Positions 40,229 through 44,593 of a stretch of DNA of 64,000 nucleotides are shown piece by piece. The stretch spans positions 62,001-126,000 of the forward strand of contig JAKACZ010000006.1 in the NCBI GenBank assembly GCA_021820965.1. Reading direction: 5' to 3'. Each line of letters starts with the position of its first letter. Position 1 is the stretch's first letter. Source of the stretch: Bacillota bacterium (GTDB lineage: Bacteria > Bacillota > Sulfobacillia > Sulfobacillales > Sulfobacillaceae). Made by a program: the position numbers and the translations under genes. The notes below the pieces were generated by a model. That model worked only from the letters and a program-made list of their open reading frames with translations, ran no database searches and had not been told where the DNA came from.

Positions 40229-41065
40229 GTGACGAAGCCTTGGCGGCTGTCAAGCCATCAATGCGAACAGGCCATTTTCACCATGTGGCCAGAACTTGCC
40301 ACAGCGCCTCCTCGTTGGGTCGAGGACGGGTGGGATTTTCGCGTAGCCATCGTGGACAACCGATGGGTGGTGCGGGTGGCCCGAAACCACGCAGCAGCGC
40401 TGCGCCTGGCTCGCGAAGTGCATTTTTTACAACAGCTGGTCGATTCCCCGGTGCCGCTTCCACGGTATCGTAGAGTCGCGCTGGGAATGGCGGTATACCC
40501 TTTTATCGCGGGTACGGCGGTTTCCGCCGTTCATCCGCCTACGTTGGCGCTCCGTCGGGAGCTTGGTGCATTTATTGAATGGCTGCATGCCCGCAGCCAG
40601 CCGCAGCGGGCGGGAGACGTGCGGCGGCGATGGGCGTACCGCCGGAGAGCTCTGTATCGGCAGGTAAAGATGCGCGCCCTGGACCTCTTTTCGGTCAAAG
40701 AGGCACGGCGTATCAAAGGGCGGTTCGAACCAGCGCTGACGCTATTGGCCGAGAGCGACTGGTGCCCGGCTCTTTTGCACGGCGACTTGACAGCGGAAAA
40801 CATTCTTCAGGACGGGGGACAGCTTGTGGGAATTTTGGATTTTGGGGATTGGCGGTGGGGCGATGAGGCGTTTGATTGGTCCGCGGTTCCCGGCCTGGAA
40901 ATGGTCCTCCCGGATCGGCTGGCCGGAAATGCGGAGGCACGCGCGCGCATGCAGTTTTACCGGTTCGCGGCGCCCTTTTACGGGATTTTGCACGGACTGA
41001 AGTTAGGCCAAGTCGAAGTGGTTGAGCACGGCGTGCGCCGGGTCCGCCGACTTTTGTCCGAGTGA
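40229..41065 (+). CDS. APH-family phosphotransferase
   Basis: 278 residues, protein-kinase-like fold of the aminoglycoside phosphotransferase/choline kinase group. The catalytic loop is LLHGDLTAENILQ, with the base Asp, and the metal-binding Asp is in VGILDFGDWRWGDEAFDWS. The N-lobe shows WVVRVARN, with the ATP-anchoring region, and LAREVHFLQQL. Such enzymes phosphorylate small hydroxylated molecules such as homoserine, choline, fructosamine or drugs; the substrate here is unknown. The GTG start has GAGGGGGG upstream; the gene overlaps pheA by 4 nt. Its link to pheA suggests a metabolic rather than a resistance role. Confidence 0.85.
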   Translation: MTKPWRLSSHQCEQAIFTMWPELATAPPRWVEDGWDFRVAIVDNRWVVRVARNHAAALRLAREVHFLQQLVDSPVPLPRYRRVALGMAVYPFIAGTAVSAVHPPTLALRRELGAFIEWLHARSQPQRAGDVRRRWAYRRRALYRQVKMRALDLFSVKEARRIKGRFEPALTLLAESDWCPALLHGDLTAENILQDGGQLVGILDFGDWRWGDEAFDWSAVPGLEMVLPDRLAGNAEARARMQFYRFAAPFYGILHGLKLGQVEVVEHGVRRVRRLLSE

Positions 41066-41910
41066 GCTGGCCTATGTACTATCAAGGAGAGCCGGGAGCC
41101 TTTAGCGAGTCGGCCATACTTCATTATTTTCCCGGGCAGGAGGCGCGTGGCCTGCCATCATTTGAAGCGGCGTACGACCGTCTCTTGAATGATTCGCACG
41201 CCCTGGCGCTTTTGCCGATTGAAAACGCCTATCGGGGTCCGGTGACGGAGGTGTGGGATCGCTTAGTGGGCGATGATCGCCTCACTATTTGGGCCGAAGT
41301 CGTCGAGCCGGTGCACTTGGCGCTGATGGCGCTTCCGGGCGAAACACTAAAAAGCATCACCCGGGTGCGGTCGCATCCGCAGGCGTTAATGCAAAGCCGC
41401 GGATTTTGGCAGCCGCGCCGCTATGTGGCCGAACCGTCGCTGGACACCGCGGGTAGTGCGCGGGAACTGGCCGAAAATCGTTGGCCTGGCGTGGCAGCGA
41501 TTGCCAGCCCAGGGGCGGCTCGGCGTTACGGACTGAACCTATTGGCGGAGCCCTTGGAAGACTATCCCGATAACCGCACCCGCTTCTGGCTCATCGCCCA
41601 ACGGCAGCCGCCGGTGCTGCCTGAGACGTCGGTTTTGACGATGAAGGCGACCTTGGCGTTTGATGTTGCGAACCGGCCGGGGTCACTGGCACAGGTGTTA
41701 AATATTTTTGCTGGCCGCGGTCTGGATTTGATGAAAATTGAATCGCGGCCGCGCCCCGGGTTTCCGTTCGAATTTCGCTTCTGGATCGATGTCGCGTTGA
41801 GGGATGCGGAGGCAGCGACGCTGTTCCAGGCCCTGGCTGACGTACAGGCGTCCGTTCTCTTCTACCGCTTCTTGGGGTATTATCCGGCGTTTGCAATGGA
41901 GGGAGAATAA
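41062..41910 (+). CDS. pheA: Prephenate dehydratase
   Basis: 282 residues, the size of monofunctional PheA. It decarboxylates and dehydrates prephenate to phenylpyruvate for phenylalanine synthesis. YYQGEPGAFSESAILHYFPG is the N-terminal catalytic-lobe motif, ALLPIENAYRGPV the conserved 'PIENS' region, and DNRTRFWLIA the T-R-F signature with the catalytic Thr. Residues from 195 on (DVANRPGSLAQVLNIFAGRGLDLMKIESRP) are an ACT domain that binds Phe for feedback inhibition. In this protein the usual Ser of PIENS is Ala. GTG start overlaps the previous stop; an in-frame ATG lies 12 nt later. Confidence 0.93.
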   Translation: MSWPMYYQGEPGAFSESAILHYFPGQEARGLPSFEAAYDRLLNDSHALALLPIENAYRGPVTEVWDRLVGDDRLTIWAEVVEPVHLALMALPGETLKSITRVRSHPQALMQSRGFWQPRRYVAEPSLDTAGSARELAENRWPGVAAIASPGAARRYGLNLLAEPLEDYPDNRTRFWLIAQRQPPVLPETSVLTMKATLAFDVANRPGSLAQVLNIFAGRGLDLMKIESRPRPGFPFEFRFWIDVALRDAEAATLFQALADVQASVLFYRFLGYYPAFAMEGE

Positions 41911-41911
41911 C

Positions 41912-42637
41912 ATGGCGCGGGTTTTAACCATTGGCGGCCACGACTGGTCGGGGCGCCGCGGCATTGAAGCCGATTTACGCGTGTTTCAGGCTTATGGCAT
42001 CTGGGCTTTTTCCGCGCTCGCGGGAACCGGAACACTGACCGAAGACATCACCCGATCGCTTAAGGAGGGTGTCGATGCCGTCAAAATCGGACGCTTGGAG
42101 AGTGCAGAGGAGGCTTTTGCCACGGCCGAATGTCTGAAGGCGGTGCCCGCCCCGGTCGTGTTGCATCCTCGGGTGCCGGATGCGGGGAAACGCGGTGCCG
42201 ACGCTCTTAACGCGTCTGTGCGCCAACATATTCTTCCGCTCACGACGGTGTTGGTGTTGAACACCGTTTCCGCAGAACGTTTGGTGGGCTTTCCGGTCAG
42301 GGACTCGGTTGATATGCGTCGCGCGGCGCGAACTTTAGGCCATCTTGGCGCCAAGGCGGTGTTGGTGACGGGAGGAAGCCGTGACCAAGAAGAATCGGCC
42401 CGGGATTGCCTTTGGGAACAAGGACGGGAGCGGTGGCTGGAGGCGCCCTGGAGTCGACGGCGCGCTGCCACCGGAAAGGGGGCCGCGTTGAGTGCGGCCG
42501 CGACAGCAGGGTTGGCGTTGGGCCTTTCAAGTGCTCAAGCTCTGGATCAGGCGAAAAAAGCCGTGTTGGAGGTTCTCGGAAACGGTCCAGACATTGGATG
42601 GGAGGCATCGGTCATCCGCCTTGGCCAACCTCAGTGA
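41912..42637 (+). CDS. ThiD-like (HMP-phosphate/pyridoxine) kinase, degenerate active site
   Basis: 241 residues of the ribokinase-like ThiD/PdxK group. VLTIGGHDWSGRRGIEADLRVFQAYGIW aligns with the ThiD N-terminus, but the substrate loop reads GRRG instead of GGAG. ATGKGAALSAAATAGLALG aligns with the catalytic 'HGTGCTLSAA' anion hole, with the essential Cys replaced by Ala and the Thr by Lys. KIGRLESAEEA takes the place of KxGMLxxxEi. These changes suggest altered substrate or loss of kinase activity. It follows pheA by 1 nt (GGAGGGAG before ATG) and no other thiamine gene is near. Confidence 0.7.
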   Translation: MARVLTIGGHDWSGRRGIEADLRVFQAYGIWAFSALAGTGTLTEDITRSLKEGVDAVKIGRLESAEEAFATAECLKAVPAPVVLHPRVPDAGKRGADALNASVRQHILPLTTVLVLNTVSAERLVGFPVRDSVDMRRAARTLGHLGAKAVLVTGGSRDQEESARDCLWEQGRERWLEAPWSRRRAATGKGAALSAAATAGLALGLSSAQALDQAKKAVLEVLGNGPDIGWEASVIRLGQPQ

Positions 42638-42647
42638 CGACTATGGC

Positions 42648-42676
42648 TTGCCGGGCCGCGCAAGCCGTTCTATAAT
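42648..42676 (+). promoter_or_regulatory. Sigma-A-type promoter before the acyl-CoA synthetase gene
   Basis: TTGCCG (42648-42653) and a perfect TATAAT (42671-42676) are separated by 17 bp, about 70 bp upstream of the start codon. Confidence 0.65.
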
Positions 42677-42745
42677 GAATTAAAACTTGCCTTACGAAAA
42701 ATTTACCTCCAGGAAATGTTCTCCTACGGTGGAGGGGGCGACGCA

Positions 42746-44593
42746 ATGCTTAACCTCACTGAAATTCTTCGCCGAAGCGCGGCCACCTGGCCCGCGCAAA
42801 CTGCGCAGCGCTATTGGGACGGCACCCAGTGGCGGGATCGCTCCTACCGACAGTTGTGGGAACTTGTGCAGGACACCGCTCGGGGACTCAAGGCGTTGGG
42901 CGTTCAACCCGGCGACTGCGTGGGGCTCATGGCTCACACGCGCCCCGAATGGGTTGTTGCCGATTATGCCATCCTGTGTCTAGATGCAGTAACGGTGCCC
43001 ATCTACCCGTCGGCAACGCCTGGCCAGGTGGCGCACATCATGGAGGACGCCGGCTTAGAATGGGTGATTGTGGAAACCCCATCTCTAGCCGAAAAGACAG
43101 GCCATCTGAACCGGTGCATTGTGATGGATTCCCGCTTTGAGGGTCGCACGTTCGCCTCTCTGAGATCGGCGGGCCCGGAGCTTACGCCTCAAAATGGCCG
43201 GGATGATTTGGCGACGTTGGTTTATACCTCAGGAACCACCGGACTACCCAAAGGCGCCATGCTCACGCATGGAAACCTCTTGTCCAACGTCGAGTCGGTT
43301 GTTCGGATTTCGGACGGGGAGCCCGCCATGCGAATCGCGACCGATGACCTGGCCTTGTCATTCTTGCCGCTGTCCCACATTTTGGAGAGGACCGGACACA
43401 ACGTGCTGCTCCACCAGGGCGCGACCATCGCCTACGCCCGGTCGACCGATACGCTGGCGGAGGACTTGGCGGAATTAAAACCGACCTTAATGATTGCGGT
43501 GCCGCGGGTTTTTGAAAAGATTTATGCCCGCATCGTGTCGCAGGTAAACGGGTACTCTGCGGCTAAGCGCTACCTGTTCCAACGCGCCGTGGAGGCGGGG
43601 CAAAAGCGATACCAGTTTCTCAGCCGGGGAGAGCCGGTTCCGATGGTGTTGGAAAGAGGCGCCGACTGGTACGACCGACTGGTCTTTAAGAAAGTTCGTC
43701 AGGCGGTAGGGGGGCGGCTCAGGTACGTGATCGCTGGCGGCGCCCCCTTAGTGCCTGAAATTGGCCGATTCTTCTTCGCTGCCGGCATTCCGGTACTGGA
43801 AGGCTACGGGCTGACTGAAACGGCGCCGGTTCTGTCCGTCAATCTGCCGCCGGTTCCGCGTTACGGAACAGTGGGGCGCCCGCTGCCGGGCGTGGACGTG
43901 GCCATCGCCGACGACGGCGAAATATTAGCCCATGGACCAAACGTATCCGCGGGATATTGGAATCTTCCCGAAGCAACGGCCGAGTCGTTCCAAGACGGCT
44001 GGTTTCACACTGGTGATGTGGGGGAACTCACGACCGACGGGTTTCTTCGCGTGACCGGCCGCAAGAAGTATATCATCGTGTTGTCCACAGGAAAAAATGT
44101 GGCGCCGGAGGCGGTTGAGCAAAAACTTATTTTGAGCCCGCTGATAGAGCAAGCGGTGGTGCTGGGCAACGGCCGTAAATTTGTGTCGGCGCTCCTTTAT
44201 CTGGACCCCGCGCAGCTCCAGCAGTGGATCGAACGAAACGGAAAACAAGCGCTCGGCACCCCCATTTTGCTAAAGGACCCCGATCTGATTGCGTATGTGA
44301 TGGGGGAAGTTGAGCGGGCAACCCGAGATCTGGCCCCGTTTGAGCGTCCCAAACGCATTGGTTTACTACCGCGGGCGTTGTCTGAGGAGGCAGGGGAACT
44401 GACCCCGTCTTTGAAAGTCAAACTGGCAGTGGTCGAACACCGCTACCGTGGTCTCATCGACTCCATGTATGAAGGGGGGCAGGTTCCGGTCGGAAAGGAC
44501 CTAGCGGGTGGCATGTCGGCGGTGATGCGAACCCTGCTGGCAGTAATTGCTGGTGTTGCCCTCGCCATCATTGTTCGCCTGGTGACGCGCTGA
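42746..44593 (+). CDS. Long-chain fatty acyl-CoA synthetase, C-terminally membrane-anchored
   Basis: 615 residues, ANL superfamily, FadD/FAA type. It activates long-chain fatty acids with ATP and CoA. ATLVYTSGTTGLPKGAMLTH is the P-loop motif and LPLSHILERTGHNVLLHQGATIAYA is typical of long-chain synthetases of this 600-residue class. YGLTETAPVLSVN is the A5 motif, and GWFHTGDVGELTTDGFLRVTGRKKYIIVLSTGKNVAPE forms A7-A8. ELTPSLKVKL near the C-terminus holds the lysine region. The last 25 residues (MRTLLAVIAGVALAIIVRLVTR) form a membrane helix, an unusual C-terminal tail anchor. ATG at 42746 has GGAGGGGG upstream. Confidence 0.9.
   Translation: MLNLTEILRRSAATWPAQTAQRYWDGTQWRDRSYRQLWELVQDTARGLKALGVQPGDCVGLMAHTRPEWVVADYAILCLDAVTVPIYPSATPGQVAHIMEDAGLEWVIVETPSLAEKTGHLNRCIVMDSRFEGRTFASLRSAGPELTPQNGRDDLATLVYTSGTTGLPKGAMLTHGNLLSNVESVVRISDGEPAMRIATDDLALSFLPLSHILERTGHNVLLHQGATIAYARSTDTLAEDLAELKPTLMIAVPRVFEKIYARIVSQVNGYSAAKRYLFQRAVEAGQKRYQFLSRGEPVPMVLERGADWYDRLVFKKVRQAVGGRLRYVIAGGAPLVPEIGRFFFAAGIPVLEGYGLTETAPVLSVNLPPVPRYGTVGRPLPGVDVAIADDGEILAHGPNVSAGYWNLPEATAESFQDGWFHTGDVGELTTDGFLRVTGRKKYIIVLSTGKNVAPEAVEQKLILSPLIEQAVVLGNGRKFVSALLYLDPAQLQQWIERNGKQALGTPILLKDPDLIAYVMGEVERATRDLAPFERPKRIGLLPRALSEEAGELTPSLKVKLAVVEHRYRGLIDSMYEGGQVPVGKDLAGGMSAVMRTLLAVIAGVALAIIVRLVTR

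Follow-up and report, generated by a model that had tools for sequence, protein, structure and literature searches.

The ThiD-like gene and its neighbors

The window, a 64,000-nucleotide stretch of contig JAKACZ010000006.1 from a Bacillota bacterium of the family Sulfobacillaceae, carries a gene whose 241-residue product resembles ThiD, the hydroxymethylpyrimidine (HMP) phosphate kinase, and has a degenerate active site (Table 1). The earlier note had this gene tightly linked to pheA and an APH-type kinase gene, and both indeed lie directly upstream on the same strand; a gene for an AMP-binding acyl-CoA ligase (FadD-like) follows. The ThiD-like open reading frame (ORF) runs from an ATG to a TGA, a single base separates that ATG from the pheA stop codon, and a purine-rich GGAGGGAGAA at the end of pheA is a possible ribosome-binding site for it. 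A promoter-like site before the fadD-like gene (42648-42676) is a consensus match only, and such matches are no more frequent than in shuffled sequence.

Table 1. Features of the pheA locus in the window
Feature	Positions	Strand	Basis or remark
APH-family phosphotransferase gene	40229..41065	+	4-bp overlap with the listed pheA start
pheA, prephenate dehydratase with ACT domain	41062..41910	+	ORF list, domain matches
ThiD-like gene, catalytically degenerate, 241 aa	41912..42637	+	PF08543, 112 bits; AF2 model, pLDDT 82.6, with ThiD/PdxK fold
GRRG replacing the GGAG substrate loop, residues 14-17	41951..41962	+	sequence read, alignment
Segment of residues 122-148, including conserved helix 132-145 (VDMRRAARTLGHLG)	42275..42355	+	alignment, model
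GKGAALSAA replacing the GTGC anion-hole/catalytic Cys motif, residues 188-196	42473..42499	+	sequence read, alignment
AMP-binding acyl-CoA ligase gene (FadD-like), downstream of the ThiD-like gene	42716..44593	+	ORF list, domain matches

The window protein scores 112.3 bits against PF08543 (gathering score, 27; E = 3.3e-32), which places it in the Pfam ThiD family, and 116 bits against TIGR00097, the HMP-P kinase equivalog model, whose cut-off is 204.95. It lacks both the GTGC anion hole with the catalytic Cys (GKGA instead) and the GGAG substrate loop (GRRG instead). These two motif readings had been made earlier and are correct, since the active ThiDs aligned show GTGC and GGAG; the extent of the damage was understated, however. 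A stretch of ∼16 residues, in which active ThiD has Gln43 and Thr45 (G005 numbering), is deleted; also gone are Met79, Lys173, His176, and, at the C terminus, Pro253 (of GHGP). Gln43 and Met79 are presumably HMP contacts, as in the Salmonella typhimurium enzyme. The window copy retains two anion-loop glycines (G188 and G190) and Asn117.

Distribution of the gene at pheA loci

In what follows, G000 is the window genome, G001 to G007 belong to the same genus, and G013 and G021 to another genus; we call a ThiD-like gene or protein "dead" when the catalytic Cys is absent. pheA was detected in 31 of 34 family genomes. All 31 loci were screened by tblastn, and the ORFs that follow pheA were read in 12 loci and then in seven more. 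A dead gene directly follows pheA in six of the 31 (G000, G001, G004, and G006; G013 and G021), that is, in two genera. Fifteen genomes, including G005 (same genus), G011, and G008, have an active-type thiD near pheA; thus, the pheA-thiD linkage is old. In three congeners (G002, G003, and G007), pheA is followed by fadD with no thiD-like gene between them; the dead gene is thus dispensable. One of these, G002, is the closest relative of the window genome at this locus. The remaining seven loci have other genes after pheA and no thiD nearby; no overlooked dead gene was seen there, the next gene resembling, by eye, an ABC ATPase or an aldo/keto reductase.

A profile of the six dead proteins found matches in 113 of 151 class genomes. 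The six score 237 to 320 bits on their own profile, and an active ThiD follows at 208 bits. Among the best 30 of these class matches (L152 to L181), the six dead proteins are without intact motifs and all 24 others have GTGC and the GG loop; there is no seventh dead member among these best 30 loci from the 151 genomes. A search of genome contigs for further dead members gave only an Alcaligenes ThiD, and a search of viral contigs found none with one profile and eight active-type ThiDs with a second.

The loss of the active site is common to the dead orthologues: Cys210, Thr208, Gln43, Met79, Lys173, His176, and Pro253 are missing from all six. The lesions themselves differ. The Cys position is occupied by A, A, a gap, a gap, G, and P; the anion-hole loop is missing altogether from G006 and G001 and largely missing from G013; and the six proteins keep 39, 37, 21, 20, 29, and 21 of the 81 sites that do not vary among nine canonical ThiDs. 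All are short (191 to 243 aa versus 262 to 266 aa for pheA-linked active ThiDs), and the five from genomes other than G000 score 35 to 116 bits against PF08543. Normal GTGC motifs in close relatives had been proposed as the sign of a strain-specific mutation. One congener, G005, has such a motif, but three other congeners and both genomes of the second genus are dead as well, and we rejected strain-specific mutation or sequencing error because the locus is dead in six genomes, whose lesions differ and whose frames are open.

A conserved helix and the predicted structure

The dead proteins share 178 ungapped alignment columns, 22 of which are invariant, and 12 of these 22 fall within the 27 columns of residues 122 to 148 (Fisher P = 3e-6). 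This segment (consensus LxGxPxxxxVDxRRxxRTLxHxG) includes the helix region RRxxRTLxH[LQ]G, the most conserved part of the proteins, with Arg136, Arg137, Arg140, and His144 as conserved helix residues. Helix codons vary synonymously between genomes, and on that ground we rejected a conserved DNA or RNA element in place of a protein.

The signature RRxxR[TA]LxH[LQ]G is found in all six dead proteins. Among ThiDs with GTGC, it occurs in three of 50 distinct segments (G011, G005, and G008), all of them pheA-linked; the other 12 of the 15 pheA-linked active ThiDs of the family have no such signature, so pheA linkage alone does not predict it. In G013 and G021, the relocated active ThiDs are without the signature and the dead pheA-linked copies keep it. 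In these few lineages, two functions seem to have parted ways.

An AF2 model of the window protein (pTM, 0.85) has mean pLDDT values of 94 to 96 in the blocks of helix 132-145. Its best structural matches include 4c5j, 8g1h, 2i5b, and the ThiD structure 1ub0 (TM 0.82). As modeled, the window protein keeps the ThiD/PdxK-like fold; the alignment behind the model contains active ThiDs, including eight viral-contig rows, and is biased toward that fold.

Selection and divergence

Two sister pairs of dead genes were close enough for codon analysis. The G006/G001 pair gives a maximum likelihood ω of 0.148 (ω = 1 rejected, P = 4e-18), with proteins 63% identical and PheA 92% identical. For G021/G013, ω is 0.076 (ω = 1 rejected, P = 1e-24), with the dead proteins 50 to 52% and PheA 92% identical. 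Decay in these pairs is therefore not neutral, and ω = 1 is still rejected in both outside the helix segment; on these grounds we set aside a neutral pseudogene. Selection came after loss of the active site, because the loss is common to the two genes of each pair, on the assumption that it predates each split. The active ThiDs of G013 and G021 (79% identical; ω = 0.025) are more conserved than the dead copies. Some subsegment ω values of about 0.002 sit at a fitting bound, dS is saturated in several pairs, and dS for one active control pair, G005c/G011c, is meaningless; for this reason, we rely on the likelihood ratio tests and the two close pairs. In a neutral simulation (no indels, one sequence, 0.5 to 1.2 substitutions per site), the frame stayed open in 0 to 5% of runs; it is open in all six dead genes.

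Between lineages, the dead proteins are 26 to 39% identical, compared with 69 to 77% for PheA. The nearest dead relative of the window gene, that of G004, is 38% identical (ω = 0.15, with dS saturated). Since this relative is distant and saturated, and since G002 has no copy to compare, selection at the protein level on the window gene's own branch rests on the G000/G004 comparison and is something we infer.

Thiamine genes elsewhere in the genomes

A canonical ThiD (310 bits) is encoded at another site in the window genome, in an operon that reads tenA, thiD, a ThiM-like gene (ThiM by eye), and thiE and has a thiamine pyrophosphate (TPP) riboswitch upstream. Like G000, G004 encodes an active ThiD in a salvage operon of its own; in G013 and G021, the active thiD has a relocated AIRS-like gene as its neighbor. 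Searches of G001, G006, and G007 found no canonical ThiD, TenA, or ThiC, nor any ThiE above the cut-off; because these genomes are 87%, 90%, and 86% complete, respectively, the absences are likely rather than certain. The other five members of the genus likewise lack ThiC. The dead gene is kept in G001 and G006 despite the lack of a detectable HMP pathway, and G007 has no dead gene. Of 11 genomes tested, all have ThiL and none has TPK. From this gene content, G001, G006, and G007 are probably thiamine auxotrophs, though ThiL is present.

An APH gene was detected between menF and pheA in G000, G001, G004, G005, G006, G007, G013, G021, and G011 (for example, the window gene and L122:4275-5117); in G002 and G003, none was detected. 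Given the distribution of ThiL and TPK, a thiamine kinase role for the APH product is conceivable. The thiK model is not among 15 NCBIfam rows for the window APH protein.

Origin of the locus

The earlier note held that the gene is not linked to thiamine genes. This is true of the window genome, but the same locus in G005 and G011 has thiamine neighbors and a riboswitch: in G005, pheA is followed by a TPP riboswitch, an AIRS-like gene, thiD, and tenA, and G011 has the same order with thiE between thiD and tenA. A TPP riboswitch (Rfam RF00059) was found in all five active clusters scanned (L119, L122, L143, L145, and L146) and in none of the six dead loci. Judged by gene order, this synteny shows the window gene to be the last remnant of a TPP riboswitch-controlled thiamine (HMP) salvage cluster that once lay between pheA and fadD. 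The six dead loci have neither the riboswitch nor the AIRS-like gene, thiE, or tenA any longer, and the thiD copy, having lost its HMP and ATP sites, has become a cistron adjoining pheA. With the start codons chosen here, the dead genes begin at −4 to +33 bp relative to the pheA stop codon, and they may be translationally coupled to pheA.

In the locus tree, the active G005 groups with the dead G004 (support, 81/79), so that several changes are needed. A single clade of all rows of the genus and of G013/G021 except G005, a group picked after the tree had been seen, is not rejected (p-AU = 0.347), and because that grouping stands a single decay event is possible. The ThiD tree places the six dead rows together (93/90), a result to be read with caution as long branches meet there.

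Interpretation

Our preferred reading is that the window gene encodes a ThiD-derived pseudoenzyme restricted to certain lineages; the finding is real and not peculiar to one strain. The earlier note had offered a pseudoenzyme as one of two readings, and the loss of the active site in all six pheA-linked orthologues, together with purifying selection in the two close pairs, supports it. That the dead ThiD-fold protein is kept for a noncatalytic, probably binding, role seems to us a likely explanation. The main points against it are that three close relatives do without the gene and that the dead proteins diverge fast. The protein is still selected as protein in the two sister pairs and presumably also in the window genome; it would do its work by binding a partner through the basic face of the helix and would be made together with PheA. 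As a guess, this partner may be PheA, some different protein, or an anionic ligand. A role as partner of the active ThiD is unlikely in general, since G001 and G006 show no active ThiD. More tentatively, the ThiD of this clade may already have had a second, noncatalytic function on the basic helix RRxxRxLxHxG, tied to pheA, that outlived catalysis, so that the dead copy is now a PheA-coupled partner or regulator; we regard this fuller scheme as possible but doubtful.

The gene could instead be a relic in decay, made redundant by the second salvage operon (tenA-thiD-thiM-thiE) or by a relocated thiD, drifting to loss and without function in the window genome. The canonical ThiD elsewhere in G000 and G004, its relocation in G013 and G021, the disappearance of the thiD-like gene from the locus in G002, G003, and G007, and the fast divergence and shortening of the dead proteins would all fit. 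Decay of this kind is nevertheless hard to square with ω far below 1 in both testable pairs, with frames open in six of six genes, or with the retention of the gene in G001 and G006, where no HMP pathway was found that could make it redundant, and we think it rather unlikely. The other reading in the earlier note, a kinase moved to a new substrate, is far less probable still: the model retains the fold and the window copy has G188, G190, and Asn117, yet the anion-hole loop is gone in two of the six proteins and mostly gone in a third, Lys173 and His176 are lost throughout, and no common residue takes the place of the Cys. A functioning HMP-P kinase with unusual residues would account for the PF08543 match above the cut-off; it is hardly credible given the loss of Gln43, Met79, and Cys210 in all six, a score far under the TIGR00097 cut-off, and the canonical ThiD elsewhere in the window genome.

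Relation to known systems

With ThiD (TIGR00097/PF08543), the window protein shares ancestry, fold, and locus, as the pheA-linked active ThiDs of G005, G011, and G008 illustrate; it differs in having lost the catalytic Cys, the GGAG loop, the lid segment, and the GHGP tail, and its gene has no TPP riboswitch or thiamine neighbors. Linkage to thiamine genes or a TPP riboswitch is typical of thiD, not strictly defining. The ThiD-like pyridoxal kinases 4c5j and 2i5b, among the best matches of the model (TM 0.81 to 0.87, normalized by query; 25 to 29% identity), differ in that they retain GTGC and the ATP-site residues. Pseudoenzymes of vitamin metabolism such as plant PDX1.2 likewise kept the fold and the gene and lost the active site; PDX1.2 is a homologue of vitamin B6 synthase, unlike the ThiD-derived window protein. 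It is the sole such pseudoenzyme named in the reference lists of PMC11619246 and PMC6522883, and the part of PMC1079889 that we consulted holds nothing that bears on a ThiD pseudoenzyme or on single-residue roles. No ThiD-derived pseudoenzyme was found in the literature searched, and papers beyond the scope of that search may hold one.

One vitamin kinase gene at one locus in one family thus forms a natural series: active and riboswitch controlled, dead and pheA coupled, or gone. Some genomes have an active copy alongside a dead one, and in two others the dead gene persists although no pathway was found. Such a series allows tests of which part of an enzyme persists once catalysis is unneeded, and it cautions that not every PF08543 match is a thiamine enzyme.

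Two further features of these loci deserve mention. The ThiDs of the tenA-thiD operons (G000, G002, G003, and G004; L145:5013-5909, L146, L147, and L148) share a C-terminal extension past GHGP or GNGP that ends near ...Y..G.W and was not seen in the pheA-linked ThiDs aligned. At the G013 locus (L115:6115-6789), where no fadD was detected, the dead thiD directly precedes a YigZ-like gene on the opposite strand.
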